Origin: Algoriphagus ratkowskyi
GTDB taxonomy: Bacteria; Bacteroidota; Bacteroidia; Cytophagales; Cyclobacteriaceae
Assembly (NCBI RefSeq): GCF_002150505.1
Contig: NZ_MSSV01000004.1
Location: 248,001 to 312,000 of the forward strand
Length of the DNA stretch: 64,000 nucleotides
Direction: 5' to 3'
Shown: positions 33,384-57,830 of the stretch, one piece after another
How the letters are laid out: every line of letters starts with the position of its first letter
Position numbering within the stretch: the stretch's first letter is position 1
Translations under genes and position numbers: made by a program
Notes under the pieces: model-generated
Databases searched by the model: none
Told to the model about the DNA's origin: nothing
The model's input: only the letters and a program-made list of their open reading frames with translations

Positions 33384-36071
33384 ATGAGATTAAAAATTAC
33401 ACTAGTTGTTCTGCTTATATCCTTTTCCATAGGAGTATTTGCCCAGAATGTGCCCACCCCAAAAGCTCACTTTGGCTTTGATATAGGGGATGATTATCAG
33501 CTTGCCAATTTCTCACAGACTGAAGCTTATTTCAAGAAAGTAGCTGAAGCGAGTGATCGTGTGCAAATGGTCGAAATAGGTAAAACAGAATATGGTAGGT
33601 CTCAGCCTATGATGATCGTTACTGCTCCTGCTAATTTTGCGAAGCTAGAACAATACAAAGAAATATCTCAGAAGCTGGCTCATGCTGAGATCACCAAAGA
33701 AGAAGCTCAAAAGCTCTCAATCGAAGGTAAGCCAGTAATTTGGATCGATGGAGGCTTGCATGCAAACGAAGTAGTAGGGCCGCATCAGCTCATCGAAACC
33801 TTGTATCAATTAGCATCCAGAGATGATGCGGAGACACTGAAAATCTTGGACAACGTGATCATTTTGCTTGTTCATGCCAATCCTGATGGGATGGAAATCA
33901 TGTCTGATTGGTACATGAGCAATGAAGATCCGAAAAAACGTAATCAAAACATTCCGATTCTTTATCAGAAATATGTAGGCCATGATAATAACCGTGATTT
34001 CTACATGAACAACATGAGTGAGGCGGCTAATATGTCTCTTCAGCAGTACGTGGAGTGGATTCCTCAGGTTATTTACAACCATCATCAGACCGCACCTGCG
34101 GGTGCTGTAGTAGCTGGGCCTCCTTATCGTGACCCTTTTAACCACGTGTTTGATCCGTTGATTATTACCAGCCTTGATGCGGTAGGTGCTGCGATGATTA
34201 ACAGAATGAATCAGGAAGATAAGCCCGGCTATACAAGACTTGATGGTTCTGTGTTCTCTACTTGGTGGAACGGTGGCTTAAGAACCACCCCTTACTACCA
34301 CAATATTATTGGGATTTTGACAGAGATCGTTGGGAATCCAACTCCTTACAGCGTGCCTTTGGTGCCGAGTCGATTGATTCCAAATAACGGTACGCCGTAT
34401 CCTGTAACTCCTCAAGCTTGGCCTTTCCGTAGGTCTATTGATTATTCTGTTTCTCTCAACTATGCAGTCTTCAACCATGCGCTCCGACATGGTGATGAAT
34501 TGTTATATAACATCTACCTGATGGGTAGAAAATCCATCGAAAAAGGAAGCCAGGATAATGTGACGATGTATCCAAAATATGCTCAGGCTGTAGAAGATGC
34601 ATTCAGAGCATCTAACAAAGGAGGAGGAGGTTCCAGAGGTGGGATGCCTACTGAGTTATATGATTCTATCTATAATGCACCTGCAAATAGAGACCCTCGT
34701 GGTTATATTCTTTCTGCAGATCAGCCTGATTTCTCTTCTGCTGTCAAATTCATGAATGCTTTGATCAAATCAGGAATTTTAGTGGAAAAAGCTACTGCGG
34801 AATTTACTGTGAACGGGAAGACGTACCCAGCTAACTCATTTGTAGTGAAAACAGCTCAGGCATTCCGTCCTCACGTGATAGATATGTTTGAGCCACAAGA
34901 TCATCCAAATGATTTTCTTTATCCTGGAGGACCTCCTATTCGTCCATATGATGCAGCAGGCTGGACATTAGCATTGCAGATGGGAGTAGAAGTTGATAAG
35001 TTGTACGAAGGCTTTGAAGGTCCTTTTGAGCGGATTCCATATGGCGAGATCCAGACTCCACCTTCAAAAAACCTTGCCAACGGTTCTGGTTATTTGCTTG
35101 ATGTGAGAAATAATAACAGCTTCATGGCTGTGAATGATTTGCTCAAGGCAAAAGTTAAGGTTTATAGAACGAGTACTTCTGTAGATGGCCTGCCAGTTGG
35201 TTCATTCTACGTAAGTGGGGGCAAAAAAGAACTGGAAATTGCGGCAAATGAATATGGAGTCTATGCAGTGCCAGCATCCATGCCTAAAGGAGCTACACAG
35301 ATTCAACCAGCTCGAATTGCTTTGTATGATTACTATGGCGGATCTATGCCTTCTGGTTGGGTTCGCTGGATGCTGGAGCAGTTCCATTTTGAGTATCAAC
35401 TTATTTTCCCTGAAGAGATTGATGCAGGTAATCTGAAGGATAAATATGATGTAATGTTGTTTATCAGTTCCGGTATCCCATCAGTTGGTTCAAATGGGTT
35501 TTCTCGCTCCCAGCCCAAGGCTGAAGAAATCGATGATAAGTATCATGCTATGTTAGGCAATTTCTCAGCAAAGGAGTCTGTGCCTCAGATTAGAAGCTTT
35601 ATTGAAGCTGGAGGCGAAGTTATTTCGGTAGGATCAGCTACAGATCTTGCCTTCCATCTTGAACTTCCTGTTGAAGATGCGTTAGTAGAAATAGGAGCTG
35701 ATGGAAAAGCTACTTCACTAAGTGGTGAGAAATACTATGTACCAGGCTCTGTGCTAGAAATGCATGTGGACAATTCTGTGCCTATTAACTACGGTATGGG
35801 AGACAATGCTTACATCATGTTCAATAGAAGTCCAGTATTTAAACTGGCTCCAAGTGCAGCGAATAAAGGAGTGAAACCAATCGCATGGTTTGGTGAGGAA
35901 GAGCCCTTGAAAAGTGGCTGGGCTTTTGGTCAGTCTTATTTGAAAAATGGAGTGACTGCTTTTGAAGCTCAAATTGGGAAAGGTAAATTCTATGCTTTTG
36001 GGCCAGAGATTACTTTCAGAGGGCAATCACATGGAACATTTAAAATGTTGTTCAATGGATTGTATAAATAA
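33384..36071 (+). CDS. Exported M14-family zinc carboxypeptidase
   Basis: The protein has 895 residues and begins with a signal peptide (MRLKITLVVLLISFSIGVFAQ). The peptidase domain has metal ligands His126 and Glu129 in DGGLHANEVVG, a third His in YNHHQTAP (233 or 234) and the catalytic Glu314 in ILTEIVGNP; NNRDFYMNN supplies the substrate-binding Arg. A large C-terminal part (about 430-895) contains a type-1 glutamine-amidotransferase-like fold (MLFISSGIPSVG, IRSFIEAGGEVISVGSA). M14 peptidases of this form clip C-terminal residues from peptides in the periplasm. The gene stands alone and ends at a strong terminator. Confidence 0.92.
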   Translation: MRLKITLVVLLISFSIGVFAQNVPTPKAHFGFDIGDDYQLANFSQTEAYFKKVAEASDRVQMVEIGKTEYGRSQPMMIVTAPANFAKLEQYKEISQKLAHAEITKEEAQKLSIEGKPVIWIDGGLHANEVVGPHQLIETLYQLASRDDAETLKILDNVIILLVHANPDGMEIMSDWYMSNEDPKKRNQNIPILYQKYVGHDNNRDFYMNNMSEAANMSLQQYVEWIPQVIYNHHQTAPAGAVVAGPPYRDPFNHVFDPLIITSLDAVGAAMINRMNQEDKPGYTRLDGSVFSTWWNGGLRTTPYYHNIIGILTEIVGNPTPYSVPLVPSRLIPNNGTPYPVTPQAWPFRRSIDYSVSLNYAVFNHALRHGDELLYNIYLMGRKSIEKGSQDNVTMYPKYAQAVEDAFRASNKGGGGSRGGMPTELYDSIYNAPANRDPRGYILSADQPDFSSAVKFMNALIKSGILVEKATAEFTVNGKTYPANSFVVKTAQAFRPHVIDMFEPQDHPNDFLYPGGPPIRPYDAAGWTLALQMGVEVDKLYEGFEGPFERIPYGEIQTPPSKNLANGSGYLLDVRNNNSFMAVNDLLKAKVKVYRTSTSVDGLPVGSFYVSGGKKELEIAANEYGVYAVPASMPKGATQIQPARIALYDYYGGSMPSGWVRWMLEQFHFEYQLIFPEEIDAGNLKDKYDVMLFISSGIPSVGSNGFSRSQPKAEEIDDKYHAMLGNFSAKESVPQIRSFIEAGGEVISVGSATDLAFHLELPVEDALVEIGADGKATSLSGEKYYVPGSVLEMHVDNSVPINYGMGDNAYIMFNRSPVFKLAPSAANKGVKPIAWFGEEEPLKSGWAFGQSYLKNGVTAFEAQIGKGKFYAFGPEITFRGQSHGTFKMLFNGLYK

Positions 36072-39845: not shown

Positions 39846-39880
39846 TAAAAAAACCCCGATTAATCGGGGTTTTTATTTTT
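39846..39880. terminator. Bidirectional terminator between small gene and rplI
   Basis: AAAAAAACCCCGAT-ta-ATCGGGGTTTTTA forms a perfect stem with A and T runs. It serves the plus-strand small gene and the minus-strand rpsF-rpsR-rplI operon. Confidence 0.92.
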
Positions 39881-39895: not shown

Positions 39896-40339
39896 TTATT
39901 CTCCTGACACGTTGAATTTCACGTTAGTTTTCACTTCTCTATGAAGGTCAACTTCAGCAAGGAATTCTCCAGCGCCATCAACTGGCGTATTGATAGAGAT
40001 TTTCTTTCTGTCTATGTCGATACCTTGAACTGCCAATGCGTCGGCAATCTGAAGAGTAGTTACTTTACCGAAGATTTTACCTGACTCACCAATTTTCGCT
40101 TTGATCTCTAATGTTAGAGCTTCAAGTTTTTCAGCGATATTCTGAGCTTCAGTTTTAATCTTTTCTGCTTTGTGAGCAGCTTGCTTGATATTCTCAGCAA
40201 GAATTTTCTTGTTAGAGCCAGTTGCAAGAACTGCAAAACCCTGAGGGATTAAGTAGTTTCTTCCGTAGCCTGACTTTACAGCTACCAAGTCATTCTTATA
40301 GCCAAGACCTTTGATGTCTGTTTTTAGTATGATTTCCAT
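39896..40339 (-). CDS. rplI: 50S ribosomal protein bL9
   Basis: The 147-residue protein shows the bL9 N-terminal domain (MEIILKTDIKGLGYKNDLVAVKSGYGRNYLIPQGFAV), a long connecting helix (about 45-75) and the C-terminal domain (KIFGKVTTLQIADALAVQGIDIDRKKI). It sits at the L1-stalk side of the large subunit. It is the last gene of the rpsF-rpsR-rplI operon; the 39 bases upstream show no Shine-Dalgarno sequence. Confidence 0.97.
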   Translation of the reverse strand: MEIILKTDIKGLGYKNDLVAVKSGYGRNYLIPQGFAVLATGSNKKILAENIKQAAHKAEKIKTEAQNIAEKLEALTLEIKAKIGESGKIFGKVTTLQIADALAVQGIDIDRKKISINTPVDGAGEFLAEVDLHREVKTNVKFNVSGE

Positions 40340-40378: not shown

Positions 40379-40630
40379 TTATTTCAACCCATCGGTTACG
40401 AATGGCAACAAAGCCAAATGTCTTGCTTTTTTGATAGCCTGAGCTACTTTTCTCTGGAATTTCGCTGAGTTACCAGTAAGTCTTCTTGGAAGAATTTTAC
40501 CTTGCTCATTGACGAACTTCAACAAGAAATTAGGATCCTTGTAGTCGATGTACTTAATGCCGTGCTTTTTGAATCGGCAATACTTTTTTCTGATTTCGCC
40601 TCTATTGATTGGCTCGTTAACTAATGTCAT
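40379..40630 (-). CDS. rpsR: 30S ribosomal protein bS18
   Basis: The 83 residues include the bS18 signature [51 protein letters not shown]. It forms part of the small-subunit platform with bS6. The start codon overlaps the rpsF stop (ATGA), and unlike its neighbours the gene has a near-perfect Shine-Dalgarno sequence 10 bases upstream, inside rpsF. Bacteroidota ribosomes sequester the anti-SD using bS21, bS18 and bS6, so this SD may sense bS18-deficient ribosomes. Confidence 0.97.
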
Positions 40631-40998
40631 TTGGTGGCTTCCTCCTTAGCTTCAACTTTTTTGTTAAACTCTCCTTTTCTTCTTCTTTCGGCATAAACAA
40701 TTGAATGTTTATCCAAAACAGTGGTCAAGAATCGCATTACTTTCTCTTCTCTTCTCAATTCTACTTCGAATTTGCGGATGAGCGTTGGATCGGCCTTGAA
40801 TTCAACCATAACATAGAAACCTGTAGTCTTCTTCTCGATAGCGTAAGCCATCTTCTTAAGACCCCAATTTTCCACATTAATAACGTCTGCCCCCAGTTCT
40901 TTTAACAAGTTCACAAACTTGTCGACAGTATCCTTTATCTGAACATCAGATAAAACGGGAGTTAAAATGAATACCGTCTCGTAATTTCTTTGGAACAT
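40627..40998 (-). CDS. rpsF: 30S ribosomal protein bS6
   Basis: The 123-residue protein has the ferredoxin-like bS6 fold ([69 protein letters not shown]). A charged C-terminal tail ([20 protein letters not shown]) follows; its last codons embed the Shine-Dalgarno sequence of rpsR. It is the first gene of the three-gene ribosomal operon. Its own start lacks a Shine-Dalgarno sequence; the leader there is A-rich (ATTAAAAAA). Confidence 0.97.
40641..40648 (-). promoter_or_regulatory. Strong Shine-Dalgarno sequence of rpsR
   Basis: On the minus strand TAAGGAGG lies within the rpsF codons for A-K-E-E, ending 10 bases before the rpsR ATG. It complements the 16S rRNA 3' end over eight bases. Neither rpsF nor rplI has such a site, so this one is exceptional in its operon. 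Confidence 0.9.
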
Positions 40999-41035: not shown

Positions 41036-41066
41036 CAAAAGTAGAAGAAATCTCACTGTATTCCAA
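41036..41066 (-). promoter_or_regulatory. Promoter of rpsF-rpsR-rplI
   Basis: On the minus strand TTG (41064-41066), 20 bases, then TACTTTTG (41036-41043) match the Bacteroidota promoter; the -7 element lies about 38 bases before the rpsF ATG. The remaining bases up to 41314 have no gene. Confidence 0.7.
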
Positions 41067-41314: not shown

Positions 41315-41341
41315 CAAAAAAAAACCTCCCGAAGGAGGCTT
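41315..41341 (-). terminator. Intrinsic terminator after coiled-coil protein gene
   Basis: On the minus strand AAGCCTCC-ttc-GGGAGGTTTTTTTTT begins almost at the stop codon and ends in a T run. Confidence 0.88.
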
Positions 41342-41344
41342 TAA

Positions 41345-42274
41345 TTATTTCACTGTGAATGTCTTGGACCCGACTTCATAATTATCCACGTAGATCTTCA
41401 CTTGATGCTCACCAGACACATAATCCGAGCCTTTTTCGTAAAAGAAGGTTAACACCTGCTCTGTGTTGTCAAAAATCACATCTTGCTTTACGGTATAGAA
41501 TTGCTCCGCTCCCTGCATCATAAATGTGCCAGATCCTTTTGCTACATCAAAAATTGGTTGAGCATTTGGAGCTAAAACCTGCACATATATATTTCGTGGA
41601 CCTTTCTCGGCAACTTTATTGTCCGCAATGTTAAAGCTTACTTTAATACGTTCGATTTGACGATTCCTGAAGTCTTTCGTGGTTTCTACGCGTTCCTTCC
41701 CTTTAGAATTCACAGCTGATACTTCTATATTTTCAACTTTCAGCATAGAAGCAACAGTGACTTTCGCTTGGAGATCTTCCTTCTGAATATTCAGTTGAGC
41801 CACTTCTTCTTCTATTTCTGCTTGGGTGGTTTTCAGATCTTGATTTTCTGTAAAAAGCTGCTGGTTCATAGCCCGCAATTCAAGGATTTCCTGATCTTTT
41901 TCTACGATCATGCCATTGTAGCTTTTGATTTTTTCGTTCAATGCTACTATTTCCGAAGAACTTCTCTGCCTCGAGGTATTTCTTTCGGCTATTAATTGAT
42001 CACGAACCTCCTCTAAAGACTTCACATCACCACCAAGCTTTTCAATTTCTTGAATTCTCAGGTCGAGTTGGTAGGTTACAGAGTCTATTCTTTTGTTCAA
42101 ATCATTATTTTCTGTGGACAGAAGCAGGATTTCTTCAGACTTCTTGGTGCGATCTACGTAATCTGTGTAAAGTTTAATTCCACTGATTATCACTAACAGT
42201 ACCAAGACTATAATAATTATATTTTTACCTTGGTCTTTCTTTTCAGGCGTGTGTTTTTCAAATTCAGTATTCAT
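41345..42274 (-). CDS. Membrane-anchored coiled-coil protein
   Basis: The protein has 309 residues: a short charged N-terminus, one transmembrane helix (residues about 18-36, NIIIIVLVLLVIISGIKLY), then a long coiled coil from about 45 to 170 rich in Glu, Lys and Leu heptads (LNKRIDSVTYQLDLRIQEIEKLG, IEEEVAQLNIQKEDLQAKV). A C-terminal beta domain (about 180-309: RQIERIKVSFNIADNKVAEKGPRNIYVQVLAPN, GEHQVKIYVDNYEVGSKTFTVK) may bind peptidoglycan or protein. The function is unknown to me. It is divergent from the methyltransferase gene at 42292, with only 17 bases between starts. Confidence 0.82.
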   Translation of the reverse strand: MNTEFEKHTPEKKDQGKNIIIIVLVLLVIISGIKLYTDYVDRTKKSEEILLLSTENNDLNKRIDSVTYQLDLRIQEIEKLGGDVKSLEEVRDQLIAERNTSRQRSSSEIVALNEKIKSYNGMIVEKDQEILELRAMNQQLFTENQDLKTTQAEIEEEVAQLNIQKEDLQAKVTVASMLKVENIEVSAVNSKGKERVETTKDFRNRQIERIKVSFNIADNKVAEKGPRNIYVQVLAPNAQPIFDVAKGSGTFMMQGAEQFYTVKQDVIFDNTEQVLTFFYEKGSDYVSGEHQVKIYVDNYEVGSKTFTVK

Positions 42275-57744: not shown

Positions 57745-57830
57745 ATTTAGGCCAAAAATAAGGAAAAATCTAAGGAGGAGTTTGTGCTTCAGACAAGGTA
57801 ATTATACCTTTCTGTCTAAACTTGGTATTA

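Follow-up and report, generated by a model that had tools for sequence, protein, structure and literature searches.

Why should the gene for ribosomal protein bS18 be preceded by a strong Shine-Dalgarno sequence (SD), spelled out in the last codons of the gene for bS6, in a genome where such sequences are scarce? The question is raised by the rpsF-rpsR-rplI operon of Algoriphagus ratkowskyi, which lies in the 64,000-nt stretch of DNA analysed here (the window). In Flavobacterium johnsoniae, bS21, bS18 and bS6 form a pocket that sequesters the anti-SD, and ribosomes without bS21 gain SD use, which raises rpsU expression (PMC9976891; this and the other papers are cited from their accessible text). 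Strong SDs before rpsR are known in Bacteroidales, Cytophagales and Sphingobacteriales, and autoregulation by bS18 has been proposed for them (Jha 2021, as summarised in PMC9976891 and PMC8710568), while the experiments in the accessible literature cover the bS21/rpsU version only (PMC9976891; PMC8710568). The operon here has the following parts.

41037 to 41044, minus strand: TACTTTTG, a promoter-like element of predicted activity, leaving an rpsF leader of about 35 nt.
40627 to 40998, minus strand: rpsF, ribosomal protein bS6, 123 aa (PDB chains annotated bS6, best E 8.8e-39).
40641 to 40647, minus strand: SD of rpsR, 5'-AAGGAGG-3', in rpsF codons AAG GAG G; its duplex with CACCUCCUUUC has -11.1 kcal/mol, unchanged with a longer tail.
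40631 to 40640, minus strand: 10-nt spacer between the last G of the SD and the rpsR ATG.
40379 to 40630, minus strand: rpsR, ribosomal protein bS18, 83 aa (PDB chains annotated bS18, best E 2.2e-35).
39896 to 40339, minus strand: rplI, ribosomal protein bL9, third gene of the operon, without an SD (-1.5 kcal/mol).
39849 to 39874, minus strand: intrinsic-terminator-like hairpin 3' of rplI, 11 pairs with a T tail.

We take TACTTTTG to resemble the Bacteroidota -7 promoter element TAnnTTTG, and we take the third gene to be rplI from its sequence and from the gene order. That order, rpsF-rpsR-rplI, is a published one (PMC10931766). The bS18 protein is 100% identical to that of Algoriphagus aquimarinus, with which the junction is also identical (locus L002), and bS18, bS6 and bS21 all have the F. 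johnsoniae chains (7jil) as best or second-best match. The genome's own bS21 carries a Tyr at position 54, the residue described as redirecting the 16S tail (PMC9976891). In these respects the pocket proteins resemble those of Bacteroidia.

The rpsF gene ends in ...GTT GAA GCT AAG GAG GAA GCC ACC AAA TGA, the SD lying in GCT AAG GAG GAA, and its TGA overlaps the rpsR ATG (40628-40630) as ATGA. The first-pass annotation had placed the site 10 nt before the rpsR ATG and within the last rpsF codons, and the coordinates (40641-40647, minus strand; codons AAG GAG GAA) bear this out. The best PDB match of bS6 ends at residue 110 of 123, leaving the SD codons in a C-terminal tail beyond the matched domain, the region expected to be under the weakest amino-acid constraint. 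Duplex energies within the operon, computed with ViennaRNA against CACCUCCUUUC or CACCUCCUUUCU (with GAUCACCUCCUUUCU for the longer-tail check) and not equivalent to free_scan values, are -11.1 kcal/mol for rpsR, +2.1 for rpsF and -1.5 for rplI, in agreement with the earlier statement that rpsF and rplI have no SD. Predicted mRNA folding gave no clear sign that the rpsR SD is occluded, and the site is not especially open (mean unpaired 0.53).

How many bases pair depends on the 16S tail, which we deduced from rpsU SDs, the 16S genes themselves seeming to be masked (three patterns gave no match, either in the genome itself or in a set of 40 from the genus that includes it). Before the genome's own rpsU (G000 C22:273856, L001) stands GAAAGGGGGTG (-18.6 to -18.8 kcal/mol), and the rpsU SDs of several relatives are GAAAGGAGGTG, which together imply a tail of ...CACCUCCUUUC. 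Among the 30 other family members listed, 11 have an rpsU SD at or below -13 kcal/mol, and GAAAGG occurs in six of these 11 as well as in the genome studied; this motif fits a tail of ...CCUCCUUUC-3', which is probably the correct one and agrees with A1534-U1544 of F. johnsoniae (PMC9976891). The 8-nt TAAGGAGG (minus strand 40641-40648), that is AAGGAGG with the T before it (40648), had been described as an eight-base match to 16S on the assumption of an E. coli-type ...CCUCCUUA tail. AAGGAGG would pair with the deduced tail; the T, which most likely faces a U there, is probably unpaired, so that the helix is most likely one of 7 bp (-11.1 kcal/mol), not 8. We accordingly dropped the idea that this T matters: it is common in the Algoriphagus-like clade, replaced elsewhere in the order and opposite the U of the tail. 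Fibrella and Cardinium are listed as lacking a CCUCC anti-SD (PMC10783764).

Against the background of the genome, the site by itself would not stand out. We scored the starts of 709 genes predicted in 803 kb of the 4.98-Mb genome with a home-made ORF scorer, which makes the counts approximate: 17 starts lay at or below -8 kcal/mol, whereas mock windows placed 60 nt upstream and downstream gave 24 and 44. At or below -11 kcal/mol there were nine starts, against four (upstream) and six (downstream) in the mock windows. SDs are depleted overall in this genome, with a few strong exceptions, in line with the first-pass annotation, which had called them rare in the phylum; its description of the rpsR SD as exceptional is overstated, the site (-11.1 kcal/mol) being ninth among the 709. 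Stronger SDs precede eight genes: rpsU (-18.7 kcal/mol), rplE (-12.8), a uroporphyrinogen-methyltransferase-like gene (-16.3) and five others that have no ribosomal role. The ribosomal genes other than rpsU and rpsR with an SD are the following, under names that, like that of the uroporphyrinogen-III methyltransferase, are putative.

G000 C33:187743: rplE-like gene, -12.8 kcal/mol.
G000 C33:189984: rpsE-like gene, -9.3 kcal/mol, its SD far upstream.
G000 C33:190690: rplO-like gene, -9.3 kcal/mol.
G000 C33:187035: rplN-like gene, -8.4 kcal/mol.

SDs at rplE, rpsE and rplI have been listed for certain Bacteroidia (PMC9976891). As four of 709 genes reach -11 kcal/mol in the upstream mock window, a single site of this strength could be due to chance, and conservation is decisive. 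Likewise, TAAGGAGG occurs three times in the window against 2.08 expected, so that the single site alone proves nothing.

We examined conservation in two sets of genomes. The first comprised one genome for each GTDB genus of Cyclobacteriaceae (60 genomes), in which rpsR was found in 57, rpsU in 59, and rpsF by BLAST in 52 of the 57. An rpsR SD of -8 kcal/mol or stronger is present in 56 of 57 genera, compared with 0 of 52 for rpsF and 0 of 57 for rplI, so that in this family it is confined to rpsR among the genes of the operon; in six of the 57 genera the pairing at rpsR is stronger than -13 kcal/mol. The rpsU SD, the focus of work so far, is less widely kept, reaching -10 kcal/mol in 25 of 56 genera. 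It is also two-valued: these 25 genera have values of -13.5 to -20.1 kcal/mol and the other 31 of -8.3 or weaker (loci L001, L212-L241, L292-L319).

The second, wider set was drawn from Cytophagales, Sphingobacteriales and some Bacteroidales, and comprised 240 loci that gave 228 distinct junctions after removal of two loci without an rpsR ATG, one without rpsF, and then duplicates. Its order-level search found rpsR in 189 of 192 genomes, of which 110 were read (30 loci plus 80 chosen for genus spread among the places listed). The named loci, the 80 best out of at least 581, are therefore tilted towards close relatives. An rpsR SD is present in 151 of the 228 junctions and absent from 77, the SD-less named junctions including all nine Hymenobacter, three Dyadobacter and two Emticicia loci; even among same-genus genomes, one of seven has lost the site (L103, -6.3 kcal/mol). 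Mapped on a tree built from the three proteins, the state of the SD changes at least 29 times (206 rows with all three genes). The absences and the number of changes together indicate that the rpsR SD is dispensable in many lineages. The junction comparison across relatives that had been suggested at the outset did not give the refuting outcome named with it, a site not kept in relatives: the site is retained in the family while the encoded residues vary, although a third of the wider junctions lack it.

Where the SD is present, its placement in rpsF is highly regular. A GGAGG core lies near rpsR in 146 of the 151 SD junctions (the copy closest to rpsR being taken where there were several), 142 of them in rpsF codons and four past the rpsF stop. 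All 142 share the phase NNG|GAG|GNN, with AAG (62), GAG (60), CAG (11), GTG (5), GCG (2), ACG (1) or AGG (1) as the first codon. The residues at the core therefore vary, the first being K, E, Q, V, A, T or R and the third E, A, V, G or D, while the five bases are constant. Spacers of 10 nt (78) and 7 nt (48) dominate among the 146 junctions. The four cores beyond the stop (L022, L123, L127, L144) are still near the rpsR start, which argues that the core tracks the start of rpsR and not the bS6 protein.

The first-pass annotation had suggested that the end of rpsF is under two constraints at once, and synonymous resampling supports this: when the bS6 tail of each family member was redrawn according to the codon frequencies in that member's operon, genera being treated as independent, strong SDs arose in a mean of 19.3 of 57 genera and in at most 30 in 1000 draws, against 56 observed. 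Elsewhere in rpsF, rpsR and rplI, tripeptides of the form [KEQ]E[AEVGD] are spelled NNG-GAG-G in 0 of 75 cases, these 75 being a few positions repeated across genomes. AAGGAGG is a real SD of rpsR that selection maintains through the choice among synonymous codons in the bS6 tail. What is added here to the published class is this two-layer coding, by which one ribosomal gene is constrained at the codon level by its partner's start signal, and the near-universal conservation in Cyclobacteriaceae. We found no mention of the rpsF codons holding the site, of a synonymous-codon test or of a genus-by-genus rpsR count in the accessible literature text, which excludes Jha 2021 and all supplements; the word rpsF is absent from the main text of PMC9976891.

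The pairing before rpsR is stronger than -7 kcal/mol and Algoriphagus is, as we take it, a member of the Cytophagales, and the site is an instance of the published Bacteroidia class. Gene, gene order and proposed autoregulation are those of the strong-SD rpsR genes described by Jha 2021 (via PMC9976891), and the -11.1 kcal/mol found here with ViennaRNA, in place of that paper's free_scan, falls at the mode of the class (range -7 to -14, mode -11 kcal/mol; PMC9976891). The likeness to bS21/rpsU autoregulation in F. johnsoniae (PMC9976891) consists in an SD before the gene of a pocket protein in an SD-poor organism, and the genome's own rpsU has the extended form (-18.7 kcal/mol). Unlike rpsU SDs, which span 9-13 bp at -14 to -21 kcal/mol (PMC9976891), the rpsR SD has 7 bp at about -11 kcal/mol and lies inside a coding sequence, at the overlap with rpsF. 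It thus has neither the extended pairing nor the energy below -13 kcal/mol of the rpsU type, nor is it the strongest SD of a ribosomal protein gene, rpsU (-18.7 kcal/mol) and rplE (-12.8) being stronger.

In E. coli the same proteins exert feedback on the same operon, the S6:S18 complex repressing through the rpsF leader (PMC4647458). The E. coli system relies on a structured leader that is bound by the protein dimer (PMC4647458), whereas the leader here is about 35 nt long and has no Rfam match. No structured leader with a bulged CCG is apparent before rpsF, none of 39 Rfam matches (E <= 5) falling in these roughly 35 nt.

The best explanation as a whole, to which we assign a probability of about 0.5, combines a selected rpsR SD with a supply of bS18 based on coupling and an SD entry that responds to bS18. 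Translational coupling from rpsF to rpsR, through an ATGA or TAATG overlap, would give a basal and roughly 1:1 supply of rpsR product. The SD would add, less certainly than the coupling, a second entry mainly for 30S subunits with an unsequestered anti-SD, which under the proposal would be free for want of bS18, whose absence also takes away the bS6:bS18 dimer and bS21. Too little bS18 would then lead to more bS18 synthesis, in a feedback loop like that of bS21 and rpsU. Counting against such feedback is the energy of -11.1 kcal/mol, weaker than the values below -13 kcal/mol that are characteristic of rpsU autoregulation (PMC9976891); the weaker SD (about -11 versus -19 kcal/mol) might nonetheless be enough, since most of the pocket would be gone from a subunit that has no bS18. 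A logic based on the pocket alone is further weakened by the SDs at rplE, rpsE, rplO, rplN and, in some rows, rplI, whose products do not belong to the published pocket, and by six non-ribosomal genes with SDs stronger than that of rpsR.

The most serious competitor is plain efficiency, in which the SD boosts rpsR translation, or reinitiation after rpsF, by ordinary ribosomes and without feedback, being needed because the overlap leaves no A-rich leader. The wider set lends this some weight: in raw counts the SD is present in 127 of 140 overlapping junctions and 24 of 88 others, and among 17 tree-independent pairs SD and overlap change in the same direction in 4.3 and in opposite directions in 0.3. 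Removal of the SD in E. coli, moreover, clearly cut reinitiation in four of five overlapping pairs (PMC6728339). Corrected for the tree, however, the association is not significant (median p 0.125), and the 24 non-overlapping junctions retain an SD with no overlap to explain it. Nor is an SD common at overlapping pairs in the genome itself, where three of 34 overlapping starts have one and 31 do not. As reported in the accessible texts, SDs play hardly any part in reinitiation at overlapping pairs across the Bacteroidetes (PMC6728339), and Bacteroidia ribosomes fail at SD recognition (PMC9976891). We regard plain efficiency as rather unlikely to be the full account.

A further alternative keeps the specialised reader and changes its identity: the SD would be read mainly by ribosomes without bS21, and rpsR, instead of sensing bS18, would belong to the bS21 circuit as its second target. 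Loss of bS21 does raise expression of strong-SD reporters in F. johnsoniae (PMC9976891), and SDs of rpsU and rpsR occur together in 25 of 56 genera, that of the window included. Yet of the 55 genera in which rpsR has an SD and rpsU was located, 30 lack an rpsU SD at or below -10 kcal/mol, and -11.1 kcal/mol is weaker than the values below -13 typical of rpsU. Nor are the rpsR SDs significantly stronger where that of rpsU is absent (median -12.2 versus -11.1 kcal/mol, p 0.10). The family counts add to the known picture that the rpsR SD appears to be independent of the rpsU SD, although a direct comparison of the two across the family is uninformative, a single genus being without an rpsR SD. 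We consider it improbable that the bS21 circuit is the main reader. Finally, that the Lys/Glu-rich codons of the bS6 tail form GGAGG by chance is hardly credible, for resampling alone accounts for strong SDs in roughly one genus in three and never gave more than 30 against the 56 observed, like tripeptides elsewhere are not so spelled, and four cores are intergenic.

Returning to a bS18-responsive SD on top of coupling, we tentatively propose, at rather less than even odds, that 30S subunits lacking bS18 (with bS6 and bS21) add a second type to the specialised ribosomes of Bacteroidota, one that reads a 7-bp SD ignored by full ribosomes. Output at the rpsF-rpsR junction would then have two components: the 1:1 supply that comes from coupling, and an extra amount, admitted through the SD, that restores the stoichiometry of bS18. 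The gate for this second component would be encoded in the codons for bS6. If this is true, the bS18 gate would be a near-universal control in Cyclobacteriaceae and the rpsU loop studied to date an optional one. Recoding AAG GAG to AAA GAA leaves bS6 unchanged, and offers a clean experimental handle on the proposed bS18 half of the sequestration model.

Several further observations concern SDs at other genes and similar sequences in the window. Although absent before rplI in the Cyclobacteriaceae, an SD does precede this gene in part of the wider set (27 of 206 rows), and is strong in Sphingobacteriales, some Bacteroidales, and Pontibacter and Runella loci (L022, L034, L041, L046, L052, L060 and others); its product bL9 lies outside the published anti-SD pocket (PMC9976891). 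On the tree, the SDs of rpsR and rplI are not significantly correlated (median p 0.25, 206 rows). The second strongest SD of the genome (-16.3 kcal/mol) is AGAGAGGAGGAAGTG, upstream of the uroporphyrinogen-III methyltransferase-like gene at G000 C22:288678 (minus strand, outside the window), whose start overlaps the upstream gene as ATGA. The other two copies of TAAGGAGG in the window, at 34119-34126 (minus strand) and 57771-57778 (plus strand), have no ATG within about 15 nt downstream. A terminator-like hairpin, CCTCC-TTCG-GGAGG with a T tail, lies at 41321-41342 on the minus strand, just below the minus-strand gene at 41345-42274.
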